From Chitinophaga pendula (GTDB lineage Bacteria; Bacteroidota; Bacteroidia; Chitinophagales; Chitinophagaceae), in the NCBI RefSeq assembly GCF_020386615.1, contig NZ_CP077769.1:5022001-5086000 (forward strand): a stretch of DNA of 64,000 nt, given 5' to 3'. Position numbers and translations under genes: made by a program. Under the pieces are notes generated by a model. That model ran no database searches. It was not told the origin of the DNA and saw only the letters and a program-made list of their open reading frames with translations. Below, piece by piece: positions 9,754 through 51,912 of this stretch. Each line of letters starts with the position of its first letter. The first letter of the stretch is position 1.

Positions 9754-10752
9754 TTAATGCGCCCGCCGGCCTCGTGCCGGTTTAACCACCTTACCAGCCG
9801 CATCCAGTTGATAACCCCGGCGATGCAGGTATATAGGATAGAGCATAAAATATCCGACGATAAACGAGAAAGACAATAACAATATACTCACACTCAACAC
9901 CAACGGCATCGTAGTATGCCGCGTCACAAAACCCTCCAGAAAAGCCGCTGCAATAAATACCGGCACCAATGCTACGATGATCTTCATCCCGTCCTTCGCT
10001 GCCGCCTTCAAAGCATCCACCCGCTTACGCGTACCCGGAAAAAGCAACCCGTTGGCCATGATCAGACCCGCACAACCCGCAATCACAATAGCCGATATCT
10101 CCAGCGTACCGTGTATCCAGATCACCAGCACCGACTTCATACCCAACCCCTTCGCAAAGAAATAATACTGGAAAGATCCCAGCATGATCCCATTCTGCAA
10201 CAACAACCACAACGTACCCGCACCAAAAGTAATACCACTCACAAAACACATCATCGCCACCCGGATATTGTTATACCCGATAAACAGGAACATAGTCCAT
10301 TCATTCTCTCCTTTATACACACCAAAAGGATCCCCATTGGTAATATTCTGCTCCGTCATACTCACATACTCATCCCCCAGCACCCCACGCACAAACGTCT
10401 CATCATGGGCCGCTGAAAAAGCACCAATGATACAGAACAACAAAAAGTAAATGAAAGTGAATAAAAGCTGACGATGATACTTACGGAATAATAAAGGCAA
10501 CTCATACCGGAAAAAAGTACGCAACCGGCCTTCTTCCGTCTTACGGTTACGATAGATATGCTGATAGATAGCAGCCGCCATCCCATTAATATAACGGGTC
10601 ACCTTACTGTAACTGTAAAAAGTCTTTGCATATGCGAGGTCGTCCAGTAAGCTGGTAAAACGTTCCGCCATGACATCAGGATCCTCTGCCTGCTCCTGCT
10701 GGTAATGCTGCCAGCGAGGTAAGTTCTTTTTAATAAACGATGATTCTCTCAT
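9754..10752 (-). CDS. stage II sporulation protein M (SpoIIM)-family membrane protein
   Basis: 332 residues. A soluble N-terminal helical region (about 1-100) is followed by membrane helices with the SpoIIM/DUF95 core: FISGITFGAGTLWLLLQNG-like sequence and IHGTLEISAIVIAGCAGL. In Bacilli SpoIIM acts in engulfment, but homologues are common in non-sporulating Bacteroidota beside MoxR and RDD genes, so no sporulation role is implied. It is probably the first gene of the five-gene minus-strand operon and diverges from the RDD gene at 10834. Confidence 0.9.
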   Translation of the reverse strand: MRESSFIKKNLPRWQHYQQEQAEDPDVMAERFTSLLDDLAYAKTFYSYSKVTRYINGMAAAIYQHIYRNRKTEEGRLRTFFRYELPLLFRKYHRQLLFTFIYFLLFCIIGAFSAAHDETFVRGVLGDEYVSMTEQNITNGDPFGVYKGENEWTMFLFIGYNNIRVAMMCFVSGITFGAGTLWLLLQNGIMLGSFQYYFFAKGLGMKSVLVIWIHGTLEISAIVIAGCAGLIMANGLLFPGTRKRVDALKAAAKDGMKIIVALVPVFIAAAFLEGFVTRHTTMPLVLSVSILLLSFSFIVGYFMLYPIYLHRRGYQLDAAGKVVKPARGRRAH

Positions 10753-10821
10753 TGGGCTGGCTTACTCGGGTAATGATACAAACTTACTAAATCAGTCCAC
10801 ATTAATAAGTACATTAGTATG

Positions 10822-10829
10822 TAAATTTG
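10822..10829 (+). promoter_or_regulatory. -7 promoter element abutting the RDD gene start
   Basis: TAAATTTG matches the TANNTTTG consensus exactly and ends 4 nt before the ATG at 10834. The start point would fall at or next to the start codon. The -33 side is weak (TTA with a 17-nt spacer). Confidence 0.5.
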
Positions 10830-10833
10830 GGCA

Positions 10834-11565
10834 ATGAGCACCATCCAGCTAAAAATACCTACTGCCTTTAATATAGACCTGGAATTCGAAGCTGCCAACG
10901 TAGGACAGCGCCTGTTGGCCTGGCTGATAGACCTGGCAGTACGGCTGCTCTACCTGTTCCTCACCCTGATCTCATTATCCGCTGCCGGGTTGCCCGCCAC
11001 CTTGTATAGCGTAGTATTGTTTCTACTGGTGATACTACCACTCAGCTTTTATTTCATTATTGCAGAGATCAGCATGCATGGACAAACACCCGGCAAACGC
11101 GCCCTGGGCATTACCGTAGTAAGCCTCTCCGGCAATCAACCGACCTTCAGTCAACACCTGCTCCGCTGGGTATTCCGCCTCGTTGAAACCCCCTTCCTGC
11201 TATTTGGGATACCCACACTGATCTCCATGGTACGATCCTCCTATCACCAGCGTATCGGGGATATCGTAGCCGGTACCATCGTTGTCAACACCCGCAACAA
11301 AAACAGCATCAACGATACCATCTTCCGCGATATGTCGCAGATCGACTATCAACCCCACTTCCCACAAATACTCAAATTATCCGACAAAGACCTCAATAAG
11401 GTAAAAGAGCTACTCGACAAAGCCATCCTGTCGGGCAACAACGAACTGGCATATCGTGTTGCCACCCGCGTACGTGAAGTACTGCATATCGAAACAGATA
11501 TGGAACCAATGGTATTCCTGGAAACAGTATTGAACGATTACAACTACTACACTACAAAAAACTAG
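10834..11565 (+). CDS. RDD-family membrane protein
   Basis: 243 residues. The N-terminus is typical of RDD proteins (TAFNIDLEFEAANVGQRLLA, then WLIDLAVR). Three membrane helices lie between about 25 and 145, with the conserved GQTPGKRALGI motif. A cytosolic C-terminal tail of about 100 residues is helical and charged. RDD proteins are proposed transporters or ion-coupled exchangers. This gene is divergent from the SpoIIM/MoxR operon, a pairing widespread in Bacteroidota. It may be translated from a leaderless mRNA. Confidence 0.9.
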   Translation: MSTIQLKIPTAFNIDLEFEAANVGQRLLAWLIDLAVRLLYLFLTLISLSAAGLPATLYSVVLFLLVILPLSFYFIIAEISMHGQTPGKRALGITVVSLSGNQPTFSQHLLRWVFRLVETPFLLFGIPTLISMVRSSYHQRIGDIVAGTIVVNTRNKNSINDTIFRDMSQIDYQPHFPQILKLSDKDLNKVKELLDKAILSGNNELAYRVATRVREVLHIETDMEPMVFLETVLNDYNYYTTKN

Positions 11566-13336: not shown

Positions 13337-13366
13337 TTGTAAGTTGTTAAATTTCCATTACCTTTG
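13337..13366 (+). promoter_or_regulatory. promoter of the SRP RNA gene
   Basis: TTG (13337-13339), a 19-nt spacer and TACCTTTG (13359-13366) give a perfect consensus, placing the start at the 5' end of the predicted RNA (about 13372). Confidence 0.85.
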
Positions 13367-13372
13367 CAGCGA

Positions 13373-13467
13373 GGCAAGTCTTATACGACCAGCTCCTACT
13401 GAACTCCCCCAGGACAGGAATGTAGCAAGGGTAGGTGGTTGTAGCGGTGCGATGTAAGTAACTTGCC
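13373..13467 (+). ncRNA. ffs: signal recognition particle RNA, small bacterial (4.5S-like)
   Basis: An RNA of about 95 nt whose ends pair (GGCAAGT, 13373-13379, with ACTTGCC, 13461-13467). The conserved apical domain is present: an asymmetric loop around AGGACA, the GGAA tetraloop closed by ACA/TGT, then AGCAAGGGTA. This is the Ffh-binding hairpin that guides co-translational membrane targeting. A consensus promoter lies immediately upstream, and a run of seven or more T residues follows the closing stem, consistent with a stand-alone transcript. Confidence 0.93.
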
Positions 13468-13624
13468 TTATTTTTTTGCCCTCTCCTCTCCCCCAATTTT
13501 CCCTTCGCATTATTCCTGAAAATCAAGAAATCTTAACTTAAATTTGCAATAGCCATTTCGTTGTGGATACAACAGCTGCTAAGCATAGGTATATTTTAAT
13601 TGAACAGCATAAATCTTATTGCAA

Positions 13625-40226: not shown

Positions 40227-42419
40227 ATGCAATCGTTACGCTTCACCGCGCTTGAACATCTGACAGGCGTTGACTCTAAGTTAAGCTCCGAACTGAATGG
40301 TAAGATCACCGAGGTGTTTGGCAGCAATGTATTTACAGGCAAAGTTGTTAGGGAATACTTAAATGACGAGGCTTATAAGAGCCTGATGAATTCCATCAAA
40401 AACGGCACCAAGCTGGAACGTAAAATGTCTGAGCAGATCGCTTCCGGCATGAAGGCTTGGGCGATGAAAAAGGGTGTGACTCACTACACACACTGGTTTC
40501 AGCCGCTTACCGGTACTACTGCTGAAAAGCATGACTCGTTCTTCACGTTGAAAAGTGACGGATCTGCTCTGGAGACTTTTGACGGCGATGCGTTAGTACA
40601 GCAGGAGCCTGATGCTTCCAGCTTCCCCAGTGGTGGTCTGCGTGCTACTTTCGAAGCTCGTGGTTATACCGCCTGGGATCCCTCCTCTCCTGCTTTCATC
40701 ATTGAGCAGGGTTATGGTAAAACACTTTGCATTCCTACCATATTTGTTGCTTACACCGGCGAATCCCTGGATTATAAAGCTCCGCTGCTGAAAGCGCTGG
40801 CTTCTCTGGATAAAGCTGCCGTTGATGTATGTAACTATTTCGACAAGAACGTTACCAAAGTAACTGCCACCCTCGGATGGGAGCAGGAATACTTCCTGGT
40901 AGACGAAAGCCTGGCCAATGCCCGTCCTGACCTGATCATGACCGGCCGCACCGTGGTAGGTCACGCTCCGTCCAAAGGACAGCAGCTGGAAGATCACTAT
41001 TTCGGTTCTATTCCTGAAAGAGCGTATGCTTATATGCGTGATTTCGAGATGGAAGCTTACAAACTGGGTATTCCGCTGAGAACCCGTCACAACGAGGTAG
41101 CTCCTTCCCAATTCGAGTGCGCTCCTATATTTGAAGAAGTGAACATCGCAGTGGATCACAACTCCCTGTTGATGGACATCATGAATAAAGTGGCTAAACG
41201 TCACAAACTGAAAGTGTTGTTGCACGAGAAACCATTTGCCGGTATCAACGGTTCTGGTAAGCACAACAACTGGAGTATGGCTACCGACACCGGTGTGAAC
41301 CTGCTGGCTCCCGGTAAGACGCCTAAGACCAACCTGATGTTCCTGACCTTCTTTGTGAACACAATCAAGGCGGTACATGACTATGCTGATCTGTTGCGCG
41401 CAGCTATCGCATCTCCAAGCAATGATTTCCGTCTGGGTGCCAACGAAGCGCCTCCGGCTATCATCTCCGTATTTACCGGTAAATACCTGAATGAAGTACT
41501 GCAGGAAGTTAAAACCCGCGTAAACAATAAATTTGACGAGCAGGACGAAGCTATTCTGAAACTGGATCTGCACCGTCATATTCCGGAACTGTTGCTGGAC
41601 AACACTGACCGTAACCGTACCTCTCCATTTGCCTTCACCGGTAACAAATTTGAGTTCCGTGCGGTAGGTTCCTCTGCTAACTGCGCCTCTGCGATGACCG
41701 TTTTGAATACGATCATGGCGAAAACCCTTACCGAATTCAAGAAGGAAGTTGATAGCCTGATAGAAAAAGGTGAGAAAAAAGAGATCGCCATTATGCAAAC
41801 TCTTCGGAAATATATTGTAGATTCGGAAAAAGTTTTATTCGAAGGCGACGGATATAGCGATGAGTGGGAAAAAGAAGCGGCAAAAAGAGGTCTGCCAAAT
41901 GTGAAAACCACACCGCAGGCACTGGATGCAATGACGACTCCGAAAGCTGCCGAACTGTTCAGTGAAGTAGGCGTTTACAATGAGAAAGAACTACACGCCC
42001 GTCACGAGATATTGCTCGAAGATTATGTGAAGAAAGTACAAATTGAGGCCCGCGTTATAGGAGACTTGGCGACCAATTCCATTCTGCCTTCTGCTATCAG
42101 CTACCTCAACGAATTGATCGAGAATATCCGCGGCCTGAAAGAAATAGGTCTGGGCGAAGGAGCCGTAAAAGCTCAAAAACAAATTGCCGAAAAGATTTCT
42201 GAACATATCAACGTCATCAGTGAAAATGTACAGGCTATGATCGAGGCGCGTAAAGTTGCCAACAAACTGAGCGACAGCCGCCAGAAAGCGATCGACTACT
42301 GTGAGAAGATCAAGCCTTACTTTGATGTTATCAGATACCACTCTGATAAACTGGAGTTCCTGGTAGATGACAAAAAATGGGCACTGCCCAAATACAGAGA
42401 GCTGCTTTTCTTGCGATAA
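40227..42419 (+). CDS. glutamine synthetase type III (GSIII)
   Basis: 730 residues, the length of the large GSIII found in Bacteroidota and cyanobacteria. It forms glutamine from glutamate, ammonia and ATP. The N-terminal GSIII-specific part includes GVTHYTHWFQPLTG. Catalytic-domain motifs are SSFPSGGLRATFEARGYTAW, GWEQEYFLVD, RTRHNEVAPSQFECAPIFE, INGSGKHNNWSMATD and NRTSPFAFTGNKFEFRAVGS. A long C-terminal helical region completes it. It is the assimilation enzyme expected here; no GSI, PII or amt gene is adjacent. Confidence 0.96.
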   Translation: MQSLRFTALEHLTGVDSKLSSELNGKITEVFGSNVFTGKVVREYLNDEAYKSLMNSIKNGTKLERKMSEQIASGMKAWAMKKGVTHYTHWFQPLTGTTAEKHDSFFTLKSDGSALETFDGDALVQQEPDASSFPSGGLRATFEARGYTAWDPSSPAFIIEQGYGKTLCIPTIFVAYTGESLDYKAPLLKALASLDKAAVDVCNYFDKNVTKVTATLGWEQEYFLVDESLANARPDLIMTGRTVVGHAPSKGQQLEDHYFGSIPERAYAYMRDFEMEAYKLGIPLRTRHNEVAPSQFECAPIFEEVNIAVDHNSLLMDIMNKVAKRHKLKVLLHEKPFAGINGSGKHNNWSMATDTGVNLLAPGKTPKTNLMFLTFFVNTIKAVHDYADLLRAAIASPSNDFRLGANEAPPAIISVFTGKYLNEVLQEVKTRVNNKFDEQDEAILKLDLHRHIPELLLDNTDRNRTSPFAFTGNKFEFRAVGSSANCASAMTVLNTIMAKTLTEFKKEVDSLIEKGEKKEIAIMQTLRKYIVDSEKVLFEGDGYSDEWEKEAAKRGLPNVKTTPQALDAMTTPKAAELFSEVGVYNEKELHARHEILLEDYVKKVQIEARVIGDLATNSILPSAISYLNELIENIRGLKEIGLGEGAVKAQKQIAEKISEHINVISENVQAMIEARKVANKLSDSRQKAIDYCEKIKPYFDVIRYHSDKLEFLVDDKKWALPKYRELLFLR

Positions 42420-42447
42420 AACCGTAAGATTGTTTTGGTGTATGATT

Positions 42448-42479
42448 AGCCCCCGGTTTTCACCGGGGGCTTTGTTTTA
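42448..42479 (+). terminator. terminator of the glutamine synthetase gene
   Basis: A 10-bp perfect stem AGCCCCCGGT/ACCGGGGGCT (42448-42457, 42462-42471) followed by a T-rich tail. Confidence 0.92.
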
Positions 42480-42576
42480 AAGTCCATATGCGGATGCCGT
42501 CCGCCAGACACAGCAAATCCGTCCGGACATTGTTATCCAGCCGTACATGTAATACACTTAAAATTATCTTATCTCA

Positions 42577-44763
42577 TCAGGTACCCAGTTCGAGTTGATT
42601 ACGGATCAGTTCATAATATTTCTGCCGCTGGGTCACCAGCTGATGATGTGTGCCACATTCAATGACCTTTCCTTTTTCCAGTACAATGATCTGATCTGCA
42701 TGTTTTACCGTGCTTAAACGATGCGCTACGACAATCACCGTTTTGCCCTGCAGAAAAGTACTCAGGTTCGTCAGTATATCCTTTTCATTCCTCGCATCAA
42801 GAGAACTGGTAGCCTCATCCAGGAACAAGATCCTGGGATTCCTATAGATCGCTCTCGCAATCAGCAATCGTTGTTTTTGCCCTCCACTGAGGTCAGCACC
42901 CGCATTACCTATTTTCGTATCAAACTGCATGGGTAACTCCCTGATAAAGGCATCTATACAAGCCGTACGCGCTGCAAACCATAACAGATCAGAATCGGGT
43001 TCACTATCTGTGAGCGCAATATTTTCAGCAATGGTACCGCTAAAAATATATCCGTCCTGTAAGACCACTCCGCATTGCTCTCGCCACGCATCAGGATCGA
43101 TGTTTTTCATCTCTTGCTGCCCTACTCTCAATTGTCCCTTTTGCGGGTAATAGAAGGATAAGAGCAGTTTCAATAAGGTAGATTTGCCACTGCCACTACT
43201 CCCTACAATAGCAGTAATTTTTCCCCGGGGTATCTGCAGCGTAATATCTTCCAGTACGAAAGGATGCATACTCCCATCATACTTAAAAGCCGCATTTTCC
43301 AGATAGATATGATCCCAGTCTTCTGGTGGCGCCACTTTGCCAGCCGTATTTTCATCTTCTTTACGATGTATTTCATCTATACGGTCGAATGCCGTCTTCG
43401 CTTCCACAGTAGCCTGTATAAAATCTGTAATATTTGTCAACGGACCCGACAACATGCCCGTAATGTATCCGATACTCAGCATCTCCCCGATCGTGAGATT
43501 TCCCTGTATCACTCCAATAGCACAAATACCATTAATACCAATATTCTTTATCTGTGTAATTGCATGTACTCCCACTACCTGGTAAAGATTGACATATAGC
43601 GATCTTACCTTCAATCCATATATCTGCTTTTTGATCTCCTGCCAGGAACCTATTTTATTCTCCTGTGCATTGTTGATCTTTACCTCCTTCATACCGGTAA
43701 CTAATTCGATCAATGCATTCCGGTTTTCAGAGGAGAGCCGGAAATTATAGTAATCCAGATTGCGCCTTCGGGCATTAAAGAGGAATATCCAGGCAATAGC
43801 TGCCAGGCTCAATACAATAAAGCAAATAAATATCCACCAGCCGTATTGCAGCAACCGGATCGATAACGTAATGATCAACAAGCAGGAGAACACTGCTTGT
43901 ATGATCTGCTGCGTCAGAAAACTCTCGATACGTTGATGATCTTCGATACGCTGCAGGATATCGGTATTAAGACGATTATCAAAAAAACGAATCGGTAAGC
44001 GGATAAGTTTTTGCAGAAAATGAGTAATCACCTGCAAACTCACCTGCATGCTGAAATGTACACTGACAAATCCTCTCAGCCAATCAAAGATCAGCTGTCC
44101 CATCAGAATGCCGGCCTGAAAAAGTAGCACTCCCCATACCACCTGGTAATTACTACGATTGATACCTCCGTCTACTAATCGTTGCATCGTATTCGGGAAC
44201 AGATAGGACAGCGAAGTGCTGATAGTAAGGAACAGTGCTAATAACAGTAGTTTACCCCGATGGATTTTCAGATGCTGCACCAAAAAAAACAATCCTTTCT
44301 TTTTACCTGCCCATCCACTGGTATAAGGTAATAGGAGACCTTCAAATGTTTCTCTGGGCGCCAGCATCAATGCGACACCTTTATCACTTGTACCTTTCCA
44401 AAGATGGGAGAACTTATGACGGGGTAACCTTATCTTACCGTATCCGGGGTCAGCTATATAAAAATAACGTGAGGAAATGCGGTAAAGTACAACAAAATGA
44501 TCCTGCCGCCAATGCAGTATACAAGGCAAGGTGGCTTTCTCCATCAATGCTTCCGGCGTTGTCTGCACCGCCATGCAGTTGAAGTGGAGTGCACGTCCAG
44601 CATTGACGATATCTCCCATAGAAACACCTGTACGGGTAACCGTACACAGGTCTCGCAAATAAAGCAAGTCACAATCCTTTCCATAGTAACGGAGGATCAT
44701 CTTAAGACAGGCAGGTCCGCAATCCGATAACTCCAATTGCGAAAAATGGCGGAATACACGCAT
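42577..44763 (-). CDS. peptidase C39-containing ABC exporter (PCAT) of the RiPP cluster
   Basis: 728 residues from the ATG at 44763 (MRVFRHFSQLELSDCGPACL). The N-terminal C39 cysteine peptidase (1-140) has Gln9, Cys15, His89 (RQDHFVVLY) and Asp105, the full catalytic set for cutting after a double-glycine leader. About six membrane helices lie in 160-450. The ATPase domain has Walker A GSSGSGKS (521-528), signature LSGGQ (625-629) and Walker B ILFLDE (645-650). It should remove the leader of the upstream precursor and export the core across the inner membrane. No HlyD or TolC partner lies in the cluster. Last gene of the operon, 16 nt after its neighbour. Confidence 0.93.
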   Translation of the reverse strand: MRVFRHFSQLELSDCGPACLKMILRYYGKDCDLLYLRDLCTVTRTGVSMGDIVNAGRALHFNCMAVQTTPEALMEKATLPCILHWRQDHFVVLYRISSRYFYIADPGYGKIRLPRHKFSHLWKGTSDKGVALMLAPRETFEGLLLPYTSGWAGKKKGLFFLVQHLKIHRGKLLLLALFLTISTSLSYLFPNTMQRLVDGGINRSNYQVVWGVLLFQAGILMGQLIFDWLRGFVSVHFSMQVSLQVITHFLQKLIRLPIRFFDNRLNTDILQRIEDHQRIESFLTQQIIQAVFSCLLIITLSIRLLQYGWWIFICFIVLSLAAIAWIFLFNARRRNLDYYNFRLSSENRNALIELVTGMKEVKINNAQENKIGSWQEIKKQIYGLKVRSLYVNLYQVVGVHAITQIKNIGINGICAIGVIQGNLTIGEMLSIGYITGMLSGPLTNITDFIQATVEAKTAFDRIDEIHRKEDENTAGKVAPPEDWDHIYLENAAFKYDGSMHPFVLEDITLQIPRGKITAIVGSSGSGKSTLLKLLLSFYYPQKGQLRVGQQEMKNIDPDAWREQCGVVLQDGYIFSGTIAENIALTDSEPDSDLLWFAARTACIDAFIRELPMQFDTKIGNAGADLSGGQKQRLLIARAIYRNPRILFLDEATSSLDARNEKDILTNLSTFLQGKTVIVVAHRLSTVKHADQIIVLEKGKVIECGTHHQLVTQRQKYYELIRNQLELGT

Positions 44764-44779
44764 AATATTCGATATTAGT

Positions 44780-45787
44780 TCACACAACAGCCAATGGCGA
44801 AACCGTTTGAGGTAATCCCCATTTATTAGCGACCAGATCAACAAACTGCGAATGGTTACTCAAACTTGTCAGATCATAGGCATGTTGTTGCGCTAGTCCG
44901 AAGAACTGGTGGATCAATATCTTCTGTAGTTTTTTATGTATGGTCTTGAAAGATTCAAAGTGATTGTTCAATAAGCGCACAAAAGTGGTTATCTCTCCAC
45001 TGTAGAAAGCATGCAGGCATTGAAAGGTCCAGAAAGAGGCCTTTGCACAGCTGGGAGTAGCCACCTCTTTAACCAGATATGCTGCTAATCCGCTTAATAT
45101 CTCATCTTCCATAGCGGAGCCTACCACCTCTCTTACCCGTTGCAGACCCATTACGATATTGAGCAAAATATGCATTAGCATCGATTCCTGTTCATCATAC
45201 GGTACCGCATACATAGCTTCCGTAACATAGGCCTTATCCTGCTGGTATATACCTGTAAACGAAAAATGCAGGAGAGCAGCCGCTTCAGCCCTTACCCGCT
45301 CCATGTCTCCTTTTCTAAAGTATACACGCACTTTATTCAGCCATTGCTCCTGAATAGACGATACCACAAATGGCGTTAGCTGGGTTTGCTTTTCGCAATG
45401 CAGTATTGCGATATCCAATTCCTCGATTGCTTCATCCAGTTTCCCATTGACATGCAAGTGATAAGCAGACATCGCCCTGTACAATAACTCCATACCCGCG
45501 TCCACCCGTTCATCAAAACTCCGGGATTGTGCGGTTATTTTCTGATATAGAAATGCACCGGTATGTAGTTCACGATTCCGGTATTGTTTCAGGCACTCTT
45601 CATAGCGGGTAAAATGATAGTACATACTCATCAATGCCTCCTGATCAAGTTCTTGCCGGTAGGCAGCTTCTATCCTATGGTAAATGTGGTAGGAATTGCC
45701 GGTAGACCCATTAGGTTCCAATGCTTCCACACTATCGAAGCGCGCTATGAATGTAGTTATCTCGTTGATAGTATACTGATCAAACAT
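44780..45787 (-). CDS. unknown helical protein of the RiPP cluster
   Basis: 335 residues, no signal peptide, almost entirely alpha-helical, with TPR-like pairs (AMSAYHLHVNGKLDEAIEEL, then VRVYFRKGDMERVRAEAAAL). I do not recognise a family and see no catalytic motif. It lies between the radical SAM maturase (35 nt upstream) and the exporter (16 nt downstream), which implies a cluster-specific role. Possibilities are a precursor-binding scaffold, an immunity factor or an assembly partner; none is supported directly. Confidence 0.75.
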   Translation of the reverse strand: MFDQYTINEITTFIARFDSVEALEPNGSTGNSYHIYHRIEAAYRQELDQEALMSMYYHFTRYEECLKQYRNRELHTGAFLYQKITAQSRSFDERVDAGMELLYRAMSAYHLHVNGKLDEAIEELDIAILHCEKQTQLTPFVVSSIQEQWLNKVRVYFRKGDMERVRAEAAALLHFSFTGIYQQDKAYVTEAMYAVPYDEQESMLMHILLNIVMGLQRVREVVGSAMEDEILSGLAAYLVKEVATPSCAKASFWTFQCLHAFYSGEITTFVRLLNNHFESFKTIHKKLQKILIHQFFGLAQQHAYDLTSLSNHSQFVDLVANKWGLPQTVSPLAVV

Positions 45788-45822
45788 AAGAATTGTTATT
45801 AGGCTTAAAAGCTGTTGAGTGA

Positions 45823-47199
45823 TTACAGGGTAATAACCGATGACGACGGACCGTTCTGTTCGAGGTGATACATCTTCCTCATAAATAAACGCTCATCGAT
45901 ATTAAACTTGAAGGAAGGACAAGCCGGTGTACCAAAATGCCATTCCTTGGGGCAGCTGCCACCGCAAACTGGCAGGAAAGTACACTTCTTGCACCAGCTA
46001 TCGTTTGTAGGTATTTCATCAAACCACTGGCGCATAATAGCCTTACTGGTATCTACCTTTTCCTTTTGTTTAAGATTCCCGGATACAAAGGGCGTATCTA
46101 CATAGACATTAGTATATGGAACATCCCAGCAAGTAGAAATATTACCGAATGCATCATAGACCTCTGCTGTATCACTCACAACCATACAGGTATAGGTATT
46201 TCTTCGCGGTACGAGATTGTGGCTGTTGGTTATCCCATATTCCTGTAAGGTCATGAGTACTTCTATTTCAAATTGGGCAAAGTCTTCTTTACCGATACCG
46301 TTTACCTTACTTGCACCATTATCTCCCCAGTCGTGTACTGCAGATATATAAAATCCCATCTTATCCAGCATACCAGCCTCATGGAATAGTGTAATCAACT
46401 GTATTACATTTTCTCTATTCTCTCCATCTACATTACATCTGATATTTATACGGGCGCCCGACTGCTGATAGAATGGCGAGTGTACGATGTTTTTCACATT
46501 ATCAAATATGATATCGAAAGACGGAGTACCATTCTTTAACATCCGGCGCTTATCGTGAAATTCAGCAGTACCGTCAATAGTGATCTGGTATTCCATGATC
46601 TTATACTGCGTGACTAATTTTTCAAACAACTCCGGTTTTAAGGCCAACGCATTGGTGATAATCTCCGCTTTATATCCCAGTTTGTATTCTTCCGCTAGCC
46701 CCATTAGTTTTACCGAGCTGTTTTCTATAGCACTCAGGCCCGTAATGGGTTCTCCACCATACCAGGTGATAAACAGGTCAGTGGATTGCGCTGCTTTCTG
46801 TATAATAATATCCCGGATGCGGGCGACCATGAGGTCTGCCACATCATCCCTCATTACATGTTTTGAATGAGATTGTCCACAGTAATGGCATCCCAGCTGA
46901 CAGTTAGCGGAAGGCTGTATGGTAAAACTGATGGTTTTACGATCTTTTATTTTGGCTTTATTATAGCTCAGTACGGTATCTAATTCATCCTCATCGGCGG
47001 GCACCAATACTTCATAATGCACGAGGTTTTTCACCAAAGATGCTGGTAGTTGCTTGAAGTTGCCGGACTGTAAGATGGATAGGTAATTATTTGCAATCTC
47101 GATGGCTGCGCCCGATCGGGTTACATATAAGATCGCGTGATCAGGCAATATATCTTCGTCTTTACTGATGTGTATATATCTGGAAAGTTTGAAGTCCAT
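45823..47199 (-). CDS. radical SAM/SPASM peptide maturase
   Basis: 458 residues from the ATG at 47199 (MDFKLSRYIHISKD). Residues 1-85 resemble the winged-helix RiPP recognition element seen at the N-terminus of peptide maturases (ILYVTRSGAAIEIANNYLSI). The radical SAM cluster motif is Cys100-x3-Cys104-x2-Cys107 (CQLGCHYC), followed by ITWYGGEP. The C-terminal SPASM domain has Cys403, 406, 412, 416 and 427 (CKKCTFLPVCGGSC, then CPSF) for auxiliary Fe-S clusters. Such enzymes install thioether or other crosslinks in cysteine-rich precursors. The short peptide gene is 102 nt upstream on the same strand. Longer frame to 47265 is judged leader sequence. Confidence 0.92.
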   Translation of the reverse strand: MDFKLSRYIHISKDEDILPDHAILYVTRSGAAIEIANNYLSILQSGNFKQLPASLVKNLVHYEVLVPADEDELDTVLSYNKAKIKDRKTISFTIQPSANCQLGCHYCGQSHSKHVMRDDVADLMVARIRDIIIQKAAQSTDLFITWYGGEPITGLSAIENSSVKLMGLAEEYKLGYKAEIITNALALKPELFEKLVTQYKIMEYQITIDGTAEFHDKRRMLKNGTPSFDIIFDNVKNIVHSPFYQQSGARINIRCNVDGENRENVIQLITLFHEAGMLDKMGFYISAVHDWGDNGASKVNGIGKEDFAQFEIEVLMTLQEYGITNSHNLVPRRNTYTCMVVSDTAEVYDAFGNISTCWDVPYTNVYVDTPFVSGNLKQKEKVDTSKAIMRQWFDEIPTNDSWCKKCTFLPVCGGSCPKEWHFGTPACPSFKFNIDERLFMRKMYHLEQNGPSSSVITL

Positions 47200-47301
47200 A
47201 GGAAATATTTTAAGATGTATACAGAAGCTGTTGTTAATACCTGTCGTAGTTGTCTTACGGGACAACAGACAGGATAGTTGTTGCCTTAATACGACGGATT
47301 A

Positions 47302-47556
47302 TTACTTGTAATTCTGACAACCATTCTGGTTACAGTCGCTACAAGATGTGTAAATACCGCAGGTATTACCGGTACAGGTACCAGCTTCTAATACTTCGGT
47401 TTCAGCACAGGGGCCGACAGTAGCTGGGCGTAGACCACCCTGGAGGTGGCTGAGGTTTTCATCATTAATTACTCTGAAGTCATCCTGATCAGAAGAATGT
47501 TGCGCCAGTTGTTGGCTTTTCTGTAACATCAGCGCTTTAAGCCTGGAGTTTTTCAT
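47302..47556 (-). CDS. RiPP precursor peptide with double-glycine leader and six-cysteine core
   Basis: 84 residues from the ATG at 47556 (MKNSRLKALMLQ). Residues 1-41 form a charged helical leader ending LSHLQGG (Gly40-Gly41), the classic C39-peptidase cleavage site. The 43-residue core (42-84) has cysteines at 50, 61, 66, 72, 75 and 80, with many Thr, Asn, Gly and Ser residues and no basic or strongly hydrophobic segment. The arrangement of acidic leader, GG site, Cys-rich core and adjacent radical SAM/SPASM and C39 exporter genes indicates a modified peptide natural product. The leader resembles the Bacteroidota GG natural-product precursor type. A frame extending to 47634 adds only sequence upstream of the leader. 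Confidence 0.88.
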   Translation of the reverse strand: MKNSRLKALMLQKSQQLAQHSSDQDDFRVINDENLSHLQGGLRPATVGPCAETEVLEAGTCTGNTCGIYTSCSDCNQNGCQNYK

Positions 47557-47697
47557 GTTTTTGAGTTTAGGGTAAAAACAAATAGGCATAACGATTAGCA
47601 TCTGCATGCCTGTCAGATGCGGCTGCTTATGCATACAACAGCCTGATATATATCCGGTATATATATTAGCGGGTCATGGGAATACCAGTACGGGCAA

Positions 47698-47711
47698 CAA
47701 CGTATACGTTG
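47698..47711. promoter_or_regulatory. 14-bp perfect palindrome upstream of the RiPP precursor
   Basis: CAACGTATACGTTG is a perfect dyad in the 248-nt gap between the receptor and precursor genes, 142 nt upstream of the precursor ATG. Two more inverted repeats lie closer to the gene: ATATATAT arms at about 47646-47666, and GCATCTG/CAGATGC at 47598-47620. No perfect TANNTTTG box was found, so this may be an operator or an mRNA structure. Confidence 0.4.
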
Positions 47712-47804
47712 ATGGTCTTGCCGATTAGATAAAATAATAGATACGCTGTGTGCTACGTGTGATTTTACAGGTACTCCGGGCTAACGGGTTTTAAGGGTTA
47801 ATTA

Positions 47805-50219
47805 TTATCGCGCTCTTCCGACTTCTTCGTTGTTACTAGCTTCCTTTTTCTTTGCTGTCTTTATTTTATTGCTTCCTAATTTTTTATTTATTGCTATTCT
47901 AATACTCCGTGTATCACTAAAGGCAATCATCTCTGAAGATGACAGATTATTCCGGGCATAGAAACGTTTCAAACGTTGCGTATTAAATATATCGCTTCCG
48001 TATAGGGTAATCTGCAGATTGTGTTGGGGAATCCTTCTTGTAAGACCAATATTTACCTCCCCAAAACCACTGACACTACTATTGGCATATACAGCCTTAC
48101 TAACATAGATAGCATCGATTGTGGCGTCTATTTTTGTATTAAACAAGTTATTGAATTGCTGGAACAGGTTGCACATATACAGGTAATCACTGGTTCTGAT
48201 ATTGACCTGCGGTGCTGCAACATTTTGGTTTTGCAAAGTCAGCGTATTGGTGAGCCTTACAGTCCAGAAGTTTTTTACGATGTTTTTGTTGATCATGCTC
48301 ACCAGGCTCCAGTTATCTGCACTGCCATAATTAAACCGGTCCAACAATGTCGTATCCGGTGGGATAACGATTGCCAGCTGTTCGAACAGGCGTTGACTAT
48401 TCGTATAACGTGCCAGGAAAATATAATCACGTTTAAGTGTATACGATAATTCAGCCATGATGCTATTGGAAGGCCTTAACATCGGATTCCCTTTCACCAG
48501 GTACTTATCACTTATATAATAAACGAACGGATTGAGCTGGGAGTATGCAGGCCTCCGTATATCACTTTTAACAGACAGGGAAAAAATGTGCGCAGGAGCG
48601 GGTGTATAGCTGATATATACCGTCGGGAAAAAGTTAGTATAGTCCTGGGTATATTTCTGTTTTGTTGTCAGCTGTTCATTTCGAAGCGCAGTATGCTCTA
48701 CCCGACCGCCGATCTTTGTTTCAAGTTTGTTACTCCATTTCTTCTGCAAAGTGAGATATATCGCACCAATATTTTCCCGGTAAACAAAATCATTGGACAT
48801 CACCGGATTGAATACCCAGTCTCCATTTTTATATGCTTGTGCACCCAGACTATTGTCTGTAGTAGTATGAGCAAACCGTACGCCCGTTTCCAGCTGTATC
48901 CCTCCCTTTAATGACTGGCTATAATCTGCTTTGCCGGCATAATTCCGGATATGCTGGTCCACTTCCAATTGGTTACCATTGTGAATCAACTGGGGAGTGG
49001 TTATATCATAAGAAGTAAAACGGGAGCGTTGTTTATTCTGATAATCAAAATAGTCTACCCCAATGATAAGGTCTTTGTTGTTTTTCTTATCCGCATACTG
49101 ATAATCCAGGTGTAGACTCAGGAAATTGTTATTGGTAACTTCAGGATTCTCATTGCGGTAGGAGGAAAATTTAGGACCGGTATTGGTATTCTGGGATATA
49201 TTATTTGATCCGACATTGTAGTCATTAGAATGGGTAGTCCGAAAGTCAACACCCAGTATCAAAGATGCTTTACTACTCAAACCGATATCTGTAACGGAGG
49301 TAACCCCGGCACTGTTTTCAGGCTTTTTAAAGGTGGCGTTATTGATCTGCTCTTCCTGCTTCAAAGCTCCCAGGTAAGTGATTTTATTTTCACTATCAAA
49401 GTACCCGCGTCTTACGCTGCCACTTGCAACCAATTGCTGACCGAACTTACCTTTTCTAATATTCAGTAATACACTGCCACTTTGTGAATTGTAAGTAGCC
49501 TGCCGGTCTGAGATACTGATACTGGCGTTTGTACCTTCTGTTTCGTTCCTTTTAAGTATGATATTAATGATCCCACCCGGATTGCCTGCCTCATATTTAC
49601 TGGAAGGTACGGTGATCACTTCGATCCTTACAATGTTGTCAGCAGGCATGTTCTGCAGATATTGCTGCAGATCTCTTCCACTGAGGATACTTTTCCTGTC
49701 ATTTATATATACGCTTACACCTTGTAATCCAAGTATGGAAAGTGTACCAGAGGCCTGTACATTGACCAGTGGCGTTTGCCGGAGTACGTCCCATACATTG
49801 TTGCCCGTTACCAGGCTGCTGTTTTGTACATTAAAGACAAAGCGATCGATCTTTTTCTCAAAGCTGGGCTTTGCCGTTTGTACTACTACCTCTTTTAATT
49901 GCTGTGGATTGGGCCGCAAGCCAAACGTAACAAAGGTATCTTTACTTATCTGTATATACAGGCTATCTGCGATATAATTGGAAGATGTAACCTTCAGATA
50001 ATAGGCGCCTGCATTTATTGATCCGAAAGAGAATCCACCTGCCTTTCCGCTGATCTGATGTCGGGTATTGCCATCTGCAGCAGTGAGAGTTAACGGAATA
50101 TCCGTCAATAGCTTTTGGTGGTGATCTATTACTATTCCTTCCAGTTTATTTTGACTGAATACAGCTGTACAAGTTAACATTGCCAGTAGCAGTAAATATG
50201 TAGCCTTGTTAGTAATCAT
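47805..50219 (-). CDS. TonB-dependent-type outer-membrane beta-barrel protein
   Basis: 804 residues with signal peptide (YLLLLAMLTCTAVFSQ). A carboxypeptidase-regulatory-like beta domain (about 23-105, LEGIVIDHHQKLLTDIPLTL) precedes a plug domain (about 110-230, VWDVLRQTPLVNVQASGT and PSSKYEAGNPGGIINIILKR). A long barrel of the outer-membrane beta-barrel family follows, ending in ISIRIAINKKLGSN-like strands and a basic tail. It lies upstream of the precursor on the same strand. It may import, export or sense the peptide, or be an unrelated receptor; context alone supports the link. Confidence 0.88.
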   Translation of the reverse strand: MITNKATYLLLLAMLTCTAVFSQNKLEGIVIDHHQKLLTDIPLTLTAADGNTRHQISGKAGGFSFGSINAGAYYLKVTSSNYIADSLYIQISKDTFVTFGLRPNPQQLKEVVVQTAKPSFEKKIDRFVFNVQNSSLVTGNNVWDVLRQTPLVNVQASGTLSILGLQGVSVYINDRKSILSGRDLQQYLQNMPADNIVRIEVITVPSSKYEAGNPGGIINIILKRNETEGTNASISISDRQATYNSQSGSVLLNIRKGKFGQQLVASGSVRRGYFDSENKITYLGALKQEEQINNATFKKPENSAGVTSVTDIGLSSKASLILGVDFRTTHSNDYNVGSNNISQNTNTGPKFSSYRNENPEVTNNNFLSLHLDYQYADKKNNKDLIIGVDYFDYQNKQRSRFTSYDITTPQLIHNGNQLEVDQHIRNYAGKADYSQSLKGGIQLETGVRFAHTTTDNSLGAQAYKNGDWVFNPVMSNDFVYRENIGAIYLTLQKKWSNKLETKIGGRVEHTALRNEQLTTKQKYTQDYTNFFPTVYISYTPAPAHIFSLSVKSDIRRPAYSQLNPFVYYISDKYLVKGNPMLRPSNSIMAELSYTLKRDYIFLARYTNSQRLFEQLAIVIPPDTTLLDRFNYGSADNWSLVSMINKNIVKNFWTVRLTNTLTLQNQNVAAPQVNIRTSDYLYMCNLFQQFNNLFNTKIDATIDAIYVSKAVYANSSVSGFGEVNIGLTRRIPQHNLQITLYGSDIFNTQRLKRFYARNNLSSSEMIAFSDTRSIRIAINKKLGSNKIKTAKKKEASNNEEVGRAR

Positions 50220-50574
50220 AGATTTTCAGGATGCCACAGGGTTGCTGACATTTGCCCTTTTAACGTTTAGTATCAAATAGTATAGTGCCCAGCTAAAGCT
50301 AAGTTCCGCTTGCAAACAGTCTATCGTATTGGTGGTCGTAATGCGGCCTAAAGATCAGATGCTAATAAAGTTCAGAACAATCGGATAGTGATGTCTTTTC
50401 ATTCAGGGGTTACTCTCATCGGATTTGGTATGGCCGTGACTGGTATACTGCTAAAATAAGGTTTTTCTTTAATAAAAAATTAAATTTTCTTATCTGTATA
50501 AAAGAAAAAAGCCGGCCCGGAGCAATTGCTCCGGGCCGGCTTCAAAACGATGTGACGATCGGGTATCGCCTCCT
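50220..50574. other. intergenic region between accC and the receptor gene
   Basis: 355 nt with no gene. It holds the accC terminator (50500-50542) and an AT-rich stretch (50455-50510) that may contain the receptor promoter. No consensus -7 box stood out. Confidence 0.5.
50500..50542 (-). terminator. accC terminator
   Basis: A near-continuous 34-bp palindrome (AAGCCGGCCCGGAGCAA and its complement, 50509-50542). On the minus strand it is followed by TTTTCTTTT. It lies 32 nt past the accC stop. Confidence 0.93.
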
Positions 50575-51912
50575 TTATACTAACTTGAACGTCTCTGTGA
50601 ATTTGGTAGTAAAGTTGCCTTTACGGAAGTTTTCATCACGCATCAGTTGCTGATGGAAAGGAATGGTAGTTTTCACCCCTTCTATCACGAATTCACTCAG
50701 TGCGCGTTCCATGGTATTGATAGCTTCTTCCCTGGTCTGGGCGATGGTAATGATCTTAGCTACCATGGAATCGTAATACGGAGGTATTACATATCCTGCG
50801 TAGATATGAGAATCCACCCTTACGCCGTGACCACCAGGTATATGCAATACCGTGATCTTACCCGGAGACGGGCGGAAATCATTATAAGGATCTTCCGCAT
50901 TGATACGGCACTCGATGGCGTGCATCTGAGGCGTATAGTTCTTGCCGGAAATGGGTATACCAGCGGCGATCTTGATCTGTTCTTTTACAAGGTCGAAGTT
51001 GATCACTTCTTCTGTAACACCGTGTTCTACCTGGATACGGGTATTCATTTCCATGAAATAGAAGTTACGATGTTTGTCTACGAGGAACTCGATCGTACCC
51101 ACGCTTTCGTAGTTAATGGCGCTGGCAGCTTTAATAGCAGCTTCTCCCATTTTTTCCCTCAGTTCGGGGGTCATGAAAGGAGACGGGCTTTCTTCCACCA
51201 GTTTCTGGTGACGACGCTGGATAGAACAGTCCCTTTCGCTGAGGTGACATACTTTGCCGTATTGGTCACCGGCGATCTGGATTTCGATGTGACGGGGTTC
51301 TTCCACGAATTTCTCCATGTAAATACCATCATTATTGAACGCAGCCCTAGCTTCGTTTTTAGCCATGTTATAGGCGTTCTCGAGCTCTTCGTCTTTCCAT
51401 ACCACGCGCATACCTTTACCACCACCGCCAGCAGTAGCTTTGAGGATGATAGGGAGGCCCATTTGTTTGGCGATCACCCTAGCTTCTTCCAGGCTCTCAA
51501 GCAGTCCTTCAGAACCGGGTATTACAGGTACACCGGCAGCTATCATGGTCTCTTTTGCGGTCATCTTGTCTCCCATCTTACGGATCATTTCCGGAGTGGG
51601 TCCAATGAACTTGATACCATGCTCACCACAGATTTCTGCGAAGCGGGCGTTTTCAGCCAGGAATCCATATCCCGGGTGAATAGCATCCGCATTAGTGATT
51701 TCGGCGGCAGCCATCAGGTGAGGTATGTTCAGATAAGATTCGCTGCTTTGTGGTTTACCAATACATACCGCTTCATCTGCAAACTTCACATGCAGGCTGT
51801 CTTTATCTGCAGTAGAGTAAACAGCCACCGTTTTGATCCCCATTTCCTTACAGGTACGGATAATCCGCAGGGCAATCTCACCACGATTGGCAATCAATAT
51901 TTTTTTGAACAT
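50575..51912 (-). CDS. accC: acetyl-CoA carboxylase, biotin carboxylase subunit
   Basis: 445 residues. It carboxylates biotin on AccB using ATP and bicarbonate. The N-terminal domain has [20 protein letters not shown]. The ATP-grasp lid has [53 protein letters not shown] and [18 protein letters not shown] carry the catalytic and metal-binding residues. The C-terminal domain has [12 protein letters not shown]. It is the third gene after efp and accB, an order common in Bacteroidota. A repeat-rich gap of 115 nt separates it from accB. Confidence 0.97.

Follow-up and report, generated by a model that had tools for sequence, protein, structure and literature searches.

The 64,000-nucleotide (nt) window analysed here (positions 5,022,001 to 5,086,000 of contig NZ_CP077769.1) lies in the genome of Chitinophaga pendula, a single contig of 7.66 Mb, and contains five consecutive minus-strand genes between 42577 and 50219. 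A preliminary description, made from the letters alone, had proposed these genes as a new cluster for a ribosomally synthesized and post-translationally modified peptide (RiPP), and a check against the list of open reading frames (ORFs) found all five in place and on that strand. They encode, in this order, an outer-membrane beta-barrel protein, a short precursor peptide, a maturase of the radical S-adenosylmethionine (SAM)/SPASM type, a 335-residue protein and a C39-type exporter. A gene-encoded leader-core precursor beside a peptide-modifying enzyme is what defines a RiPP cluster in general, and the cassette has that make-up, with the modification itself predicted. Likewise, we use "crosslinked" and "thioether" below for predicted properties.

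Genes of the cassette

The translation of the precursor agrees with the earlier account on every point: 84 residues, a leader that runs through LSHLQGG to Gly41, and a 43-residue core with cysteines at positions 50, 61, 66, 72, 75 and 80. Two homologues, P0002 (71% identical) and the precursor of the congeneric locus L024, keep all six cysteines, and the double glycine (GG) is invariant in 15 aligned precursors. Between the window and L024, nonsynonymous divergence was low (pN = 0.257) against a saturated synonymous divergence (pS = 0.946 over 46 sites), which argues that the peptide is constrained at the protein level. Neither NCBIfam nor Pfam has a model that matches the precursor, in line with the earlier remark that its core could not be assigned to a described family. 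A protein search of 5.77 billion sequences returned only one homologue besides the query itself; because such a search needs shared exact words, short diverged peptides are readily missed, and most relatives of the precursor were recovered through gene position.

The maturase displays the radical SAM motif CQLGCHYC as previously noted (C100, C104 and C107; CX3CX2C), followed by C338-x13-G-x4-C357 and C403-x2-C406-x5-C412-x3-C416-x10-C427. The SPASM cysteines from 403 to 427 had been recognized correctly, but it takes Cys338 and Cys357 to complete the seven-cysteine motif. All ten cluster cysteines are invariant in two maturase alignments, of 12 and 28 sequences, and the score of 37.5 bits against TIGR04085 (cut-off 27), together with both motifs, places the enzyme among the radical SAM/SPASM maturases in the broad sense. 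Its best NCBIfam match is TIGR04463 ("rSAM_vs_C_rich"), with 202.7 bits against a cut-off of 525, and the same model came out best in all 10 of the 10 maturase relatives scanned (110 to 243 bits, all below 525). Membership in TIGR04463 or another named NCBIfam maturase family was rejected, as the scores lay below cut-off among the models listed, and the ranthipeptide maturase models were likewise not reached (48.8 against 425 bits for SCIFF, TIGR03974; 90.3 against 340 bits for PapB, NF047865). The predicted fold is nearest to CteB, over an aligned range that takes in the N-terminal part, and a sequence search of solved structures gave CteB as its one match, over residues 85 to 242.

The exporter matches PF03412 (114.7 bits), PF00664 (78.5 bits) and PF00005 (114.4 bits) above cut-off and carries three ATPase motifs. 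Gln9, Cys15, His89 and Asp105, which we take to be catalytic, are located where they had been placed before, in a complete protein. By its domains and residues, the protein is a C39 peptidase ATP-binding cassette (ABC) exporter, or PCAT, for which cleavage of the precursor is predicted. The barrel protein matches PF14905 (OMP_b-brl_3; 247 bits, cut-off 27), the plug domain PF07715 (31.7 bits, cut-off 23.9) and PF00593 (47.2 bits, cut-off 27), with a CarboxypepD_reg-like stretch under cut-off and an N-terminus that resembles a signal peptide by eye. The combination of plug and beta-barrel domains is that of a TonB-dependent outer-membrane receptor as judged from sequence; as to its role, the protein may serve as an exit route just as well as the receptor of the earlier label.

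For the 335-residue protein, Pfam and NCBIfam gave nothing above cut-off; Pfam has two matches that fall short of it, and no Pfam tetratricopeptide repeat (TPR) model matches. Its AlphaFold2 model is all-helical (pLDDT 86.8), and TPR proteins, with NprR, PlcR and Rap among them, head both lists of structural matches, at scores (best Foldseek E 0.014, best Z 14.8) of a size that the tool describes as common among helical repeats. The NprR, PlcR and Rap families are sensors of peptides. On these modest scores we call the protein TPR-like. A sequence search of solved structures reached E 0.16 at best, with nitrophorins, which we took as chance, and a single-sequence search found three homologues besides the protein itself. 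Identity to the L024 copies is 44% for this protein, compared to 69% for the maturase, 67% for the exporter and 59% for the barrel, so that by sequence comparison it evolves faster than its neighbours in the cassette.

Table 1. Positions (in the window) of the cassette, its genes and the parts of the precursor
Feature	Coordinates	Strand	Basis
Outer-membrane beta-barrel protein, 804 aa	47805..50219	-	Pfam matches; N-terminus by eye
Precursor peptide gene, 84 aa from ATG	47302..47556	-	Sequence; six-Cys homologues P0002 and L024; pN/pS
Leader, residues 1-41, ends in LSHLQGG	47434..47556	-	Sequence; GG invariant in aligned precursors
Core, residues 42-84 (43 aa, six Cys), and stop codon	47302..47433	-	Sequence
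Core unit 1, residues 61-69, CTGNTCGIY (C-x2-N-x-C-x2-Y)	47350..47376	-	Kept in P0002 and L024; C+3 statistics
Core unit 2, residues 75-83, CNQNGCQNY (C-x2-N-x-C-x2-Y)	47308..47334	-	Sequence; counterparts in P0002 and L024
Radical SAM/SPASM peptide maturase, 458 aa from ATG; N-terminal part located as the RiPP recognition element (RRE) of CteB	45823..47199	-	
335-aa all-helical TPR-like protein ("U335"), family without a name	44780..45787	-	AlphaFold2; structural matches; profile relatives
C39-peptidase ABC exporter, 728 aa	42577..44763	-	PF03412, PF00664, PF00005; catalytic residues
Approximate inserted stretch between two conserved convergent genes	42480..50572	.	Similarity break points against six short-gap congener sites

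Relatives within and beyond the genus

A search of 79 Chitinophaga genomes gave a match to the maturase at E 0.001 in 47 and, at E ≤1.5e-78, 15 matches in 13 genomes, the window's own included. Among the other 14 strong matches, 11 (loci L023 to L033) lie with a GG precursor and with matches to a C39-type exporter and to the barrel. Farther out, the maturase is rare: at E 1e-60, a sample of 394 genomes from the family had it in 7 and a sample of 395 from the class in 4, where both counts include the window's own. A profile search of the protein database gave 387 maturase relatives at E 1e-60, and their names were generic wherever shown, among the 120 of 387 listed.

From named genomes, 80 loci were fetched, of which we annotated the first 42 (L038 to L079; L045 and L046 are copies within one species) and left out 38 more distant ones (L080 to L117). 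Hand reading found a GG/Cys precursor in 37 of the 42, at most 2.7 kb upstream of the maturase, and a strict fixed filter found one within 1.6 kb in 32; in L062, L064 and L073 the precursor precedes the barrel gene. An exporter of the C39-ABC type was located downstream in 34 loci (by a profile of four such exporters, catalytic residues not being checked singly), and a barrel (OMP-like) gene lay at most 2 kb upstream in 32. A relative of the 335-residue protein was found by profile directly downstream of the maturase in 19, which answers the earlier proposal to look for such co-occurrence, and precursor, exporter, barrel and this relative stood together in 15. The co-occurrence indicates that the cassette belongs to a patchy RiPP family of Bacteroidota, whose maturase is present in Chitinophaga, Mucilaginibacter, Pedobacter, Chryseobacterium, Flavobacterium and others. 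The proposed RiPP cluster is supported by the GG- and Cys-bearing homologues, their co-occurrence with the maturase and the complete exporter, but "new" has to be read more narrowly for a member of a broad family with similar Bacteroidales layouts in print.

The fixed filter passed 57 small GG/Cys ORFs in the regions immediately upstream of the 42 maturases (67,200 nt in all), compared to 11 in the remainder of these loci (1,172,723 strand-nt). Sorted by eye, these 11 comprised six further precursors of the family, four other GG peptides and one spurious-looking frame. The expectation that homologues would keep GG and cysteines and co-occur with the maturase was borne out in the related loci; the six cysteines shared by the window precursor, P0002 and L024, in contrast, do not define the family, as the compared cores hold between two and six.

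The first profile of the 335-residue protein had been seeded partly by gene position; restarted from five close sequences, it gave 15 matches in round one and all 19 loci by the second of three rounds, which supports homology. Presence of the protein is clustered on the maturase tree, with 5 changes compared to 11.7 in shuffles, and it could perhaps be a peptide-binding adaptor or an immunity protein. On a maturase tree of 34 rows, the window groups with L024, L068, L039, L040, L043 and L038 in a clade of seven rows (support 100/100).

Several loci show further gene contents. L067, from the betaproteobacterium Janthinobacterium fluminis, pairs a Bacteroidota-type maturase with three GG precursors of the CGLLLTCGNY type, with no C39 exporter or barrel match inside the locus, and likely reflects transfer between phyla. 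A second cluster in the C. pendula genome, outside the window (L023; G000:C1:3441000-3460900), combines a 42%-identical maturase, a C39 exporter and a barrel with a precursor that has two cysteines and a Thr-rich tail (TPTSPTTTTASFF); after the exporter follow two genes that resemble glycosyltransferases (PF02485; PF02709) and one that is LanC-like, and glycosylation of this precursor is a further possibility. Genes of both kinds recur in L026, L028/L052 and L033/L058, although L058 lacks the one of PF02485 type. An (S/T)-K pair follows the first core cysteine in L023, L026 and L028, so that the Ser/Thr beside the cysteine could be a sugar site.

A second, divergent radical SAM enzyme (27 to 29% identity) is found in L030 (Chitinophaga fulva), L031 (C. 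oryziterrae) and L032 (a congener), whose cores hold two copies of C-x-C-(N/D)-x-G-S-x-Y. The L030 cluster further encodes a glycosyltransferase of the GlcNAc type (PF11397) and a Fer2 ferredoxin-like protein, and L032 has genes of matching size and place, as seen by size and position. In L038 (C. ginsengisegetis), the 335-aa gene and the exporter are separated by two small GG ORFs (10422-10840) that lack core cysteines and are possibly further substrates. The Flavobacterium loci L047 (1802-1978) and L069 (1755-1949) each have a GG peptide of another kind on the minus strand, with an MKxKKTKK... leader and an NCN...CG core, about 5 to 6 kb from the maturase, on the strand opposite to it and unrelated by eye. 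Finally, a third, distant radical SAM gene of the C. pendula genome (L037; G000:C1:4276000-4295000, outside the window) has S41 and S8 peptidases, a glycosyltransferase-like gene, a UPF0489 protein and MacB/FtsX-like genes as neighbours.

Core motif, predicted rings and alternatives

To compare cores, we hand-picked 64 GG- and Cys-bearing precursors from the genus and named-genome loci. Left out were copies or near-copies (the first in L038, equal to L025; three of four in L042; two of four in L043; L046; L052, L055, L058 and L059, equal to L028, L030, L033 and L031; the second of L069; L079), Cys-poor GG peptides (two in L038, one in L054) and GG ORFs judged spurious. The GG was taken by rule as the first one from residue 25 on, and the L060 precursor was trimmed to an inner Met; of six late-found precursors, those of L054 and L067 are in the set, while two in L047 and one each in L068 and L069 are outside it. 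The leader is conserved in style, the core sequence is not, and in this set, picked for Cys-bearing cores, cysteine makes up 1 of 2,273 leader residues compared to 238 of 1,966 core residues.

The commonest feature shared by the cores, as read from their sequences, is C-x2-(aromatic/aliphatic/Asn). In 56 non-redundant cores, compared to shuffles that kept the Cys positions, the residue at C+3 was F/W/Y for 65 of 209 cysteines (16.9 expected), L/I/M/V for 57 (29.5 expected) and N for 38 (18.0 expected). Pooled, these eight residues follow 178 of the 237 core cysteines of the 64 precursors at that position, and with 32 core families weighted equally their frequency was 0.658 against 0.296 (0 of 1,000 shuffles as high). 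Across offsets +1 to +6, the pooled set was enriched after Cys only at +3; F/W/Y alone and N alone were marginal at +4 (43 and 22 of 1,000 shuffles). This pattern suggests four-residue rings from Cys to residue i+3. A CX3D logic as in PapA was also tried and rejected, with Asp/Glu at C+4 of 17/202 compared to 23.2 expected in shuffles of the 56 cores; the window core has one C-x3-E spacing, C50-AET-E54.

The window core consists of two C-x2-N-x-C-x2-Y units with C50 and C72 outside them, and P0002 and L024 keep both units. A looser two-cysteine unit occurs in at least one copy in 50 of 64 cores and in at least two copies in 34. Within the maturase clade of the window, N-x-C-x2-(Y/F) recurs in the window, L024, L039, L040 and L043, L068 has a core with CPKLTSCGTY, and L038 has a short CTTMCYVN; a third, distant precursor of L068, CSELTACGTYNSCSDKC, is closely like CTGNTCGIYTSCSDC of the window.

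From gene content, co-occurrence, motifs and conservation, as given by sequence and comparison, we consider it likely that the row is a RiPP biosynthesis-and-export cassette for a peptide with C-x2-X thioether rings, cleaved and exported by the C39 protein and released with the help of the barrel. The RRE-like N-terminal part of the maturase would bind the precursor leader, and the enzyme, with SAM and [4Fe-4S] clusters, would introduce crosslinks into the Cys-rich core. These would most likely join Cys sulfurs to residues i+3 (C61-N64, C66-Y69, C75-N78 and C80-Y83) in small thioether rings of the in-line kind. Next, the exporter would cut after Gly40-Gly41 with its C39 domain, the ABC protein would move the core into the periplasm, and the linked barrel would act in its release (or re-uptake). 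The TPR-like protein, which is optional and evolves fast, may bind the peptide as an adaptor or confer immunity. The predicted route and chemistry would fit a peptide that probably acts in interbacterial competition.

A number of observations weigh against this reading. The cassette is not always complete: three of the 14 other strong genus matches (L034, L035 and L036; 34 to 38% identical) lack both GG precursor and exporter match, so that the maturase family is not always tied to the cassette, and among the 42 annotated loci, 5 have no recognized precursor, 8 no downstream exporter (3 of them at contig ends) and 10 no upstream barrel. Among the 25 models listed out of 44, the 24 others have curated cut-offs that the maturase does not reach, those for thioether-forming enzymes included. 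As for the motif, the C+3 residue pool was picked after a first look, and the families are still related by descent. Gly at C+1 is also enriched (58/210, 24.8 expected), as are aliphatics at C-3, Ser/Thr at C-1 and C+4, Asp/Glu at C-1, and Pro at C+1 and C-5, and the C+3 signal may accordingly reflect conserved core motifs instead of ring acceptors. It is low in 5 of 32 families (L056, 1/4; L060, 0/2; L062, L074 and L078, 0/3 each) and fits one third of the cysteines in L063 and L064 (2/6 each), and C50-x2-T and C72-x2-C in the window itself break the C-x2 rule. The glycosyltransferases in several sister clusters raise the prospect that Cys or nearby Ser/Thr could be glycosylated there.

There is some room, which we judge limited, for a RiPP cluster whose maturase does something else: C-C or C-O crosslinks on Tyr, Trp or Asn, epimerization, or larger nested thioether rings, with the cysteines as disulfides or metal ligands. 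The near-absence of Cys from the leaders, within the selection noted above, and the way in which it anchors the motif speak against this, as does the best match of the maturase to CteB, a thioether maturase. A metal-binding or signalling peptide, with the barrel as uptake receptor instead of export partner and a product that is not antibacterial, is likewise rather unlikely; it draws on the plug and TonB-receptor-type domains of the barrel, on the first place of the barrel gene in the row, on the lack of an evident immunity gene among the five, and on the peptide sensors among the structural matches of the TPR-like protein. That the 84-codon ORF is a chance or decayed frame and the substrate lies elsewhere, as the single further homologue in the large search might hint, is very improbable given three sequences with six conserved cysteines, protein-level constraint and a matching gene position in relatives.

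Returning to the thioether-ring cassette, it is conceivable, though doubtful, that it stands for a new peptide class, which would be set apart by repeated four-residue i+3 rings with Tyr/Phe/Asn/Leu acceptors, paired units C-x2-(N/L)-x(1-2)-C-x2-(Y/F/N), one maturase acting on hypervariable cores, a TPR adaptor, and a TonB-receptor-type barrel as exit.

Insertion site and known systems

On the left, the cassette is bordered by a 730-aa plus-strand gene (40227-42419; no NCBIfam match at E 1e-40), presumably glutamine synthetase III, and on the right by accC (50575-51912; TIGR00514 above cut-off). Each flanking gene is present in 78 of 79 genus genomes, the window's own included; both lie on one contig in 77 genomes, and on opposite strands in 75. 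The gap between them ranges from 134 bases to 19 kb across these 77, the window's own counted, and is shorter than 300 bases in 12 and shorter than 2 kb in 57, so that 42420-50574 is a variable site in the genus. It measures 8,161 bases in C. pendula and is longer in two other genomes (8,350 and 19,099). Similarity to six fetched short-gap sites (134 to 822 bases) ends at about 42473-42482 and restarts at about 50572-50585, and the G+C content of the cassette genes is 0.41 to 0.46, compared to 0.47 in both neighbours. The simplest reading of these comparisons is that the cassette was inserted at a variable site, and the five-gene set is probably mobile. We saw no direct repeats at the ends (the longest common word has 8 bases) and hence propose no integration mechanism. 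Three other long gaps that we fetched (G038, G006 and G030) contain different ORFs, known from the ORF list alone, with repeated short lipoprotein-like ORFs by eye in G030; those of G005, G033 and G049 were left out of inspection.

The five genes include no integrase and no membrane-fusion or TolC-like protein. An RNA-family scan at gathering cut-offs gave no match inside the cassette; in the window, it gave a Bacteroidales small signal recognition particle RNA (RF04183, 103.7 bits) at 13365-13472 on the plus strand. A Bacteroidetes-type promoter pattern had 4 matches in the window and 0 in the cassette, and a sigma-70 scan found 22 sites where 20.9 were expected.

Among known systems, CteB and the SCIFF/ranthipeptide maturases resemble the window's enzyme in that the thioether-forming CteB is its best structural match. 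They differ in that identity is only 16 to 17% in the structural alignment, the SCIFF model is not reached (scores as above), the precursors are of another kind, and the window links a C39 exporter and a barrel. The TIGR04463 family, whose name implies Cys-rich targets, is the best NCBIfam match, but the scores over 11 proteins (110 to 243 bits) stay below its cut-off of 525; its accession was not found in the open-access papers searched. Sactipeptides and ranthipeptides such as streptosactin and freyrasin/PapA share Cys-rich cores and have small thioether rings, with a Cys31-Gly34 S-C-alpha bond, i to i+3, in streptosactin and Tyr34 as acceptor in thuricin Z, as given in the accessible text of PMC8172795. 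PapB makes repeated Cys-X3-Asp rings (accessible text of PMC9413430), whereas the window family has no Asp/Glu enrichment at C+4 and its candidate acceptors are Tyr, Phe, Asn and Leu at C+3.

We found no description in the open-access papers searched of this maturase/precursor family, of the two-unit C-x2-X core pattern or of its spread. The analysis offers a named, testable prediction of linked residues for a radical SAM peptide family spread over several Bacteroidota genera, and one enzyme family that acts on widely varying cores could serve in making stable cyclic peptides. Given the linked barrel, one may also ask how peptides exported by a C39 protein get across the outer membrane with no membrane-fusion or TolC-like gene in the cassette.

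Bacteroidota are already known to have radical SAM peptides of this general kind, in which a GG leader goes with a C39 exporter and an outer-membrane protein. A Mucilaginibacter cluster was rejected as a counterpart, being a different cluster as far as the accessible text of PMC9062424 goes. Among the Bacteroidales RiPP clusters of PMC10352776, in the parts of that text accessible to us, radical SAM enzymes occur in 8 of 9, along with GG leaders and C39 exporters; four have an outer-membrane protein without a membrane-fusion protein, two a TPR gene, and some glycosyltransferase and LanC-like genes. Compared by description only, the cassette in C. pendula shares with them the radical SAM enzyme, the C39 exporter and the outer-membrane protein, with a possible parallel between its TPR-like gene and the TPR gene of some; they come from another bacterial order, the Bacteroidales, and those parts of the source do not show its core motif.

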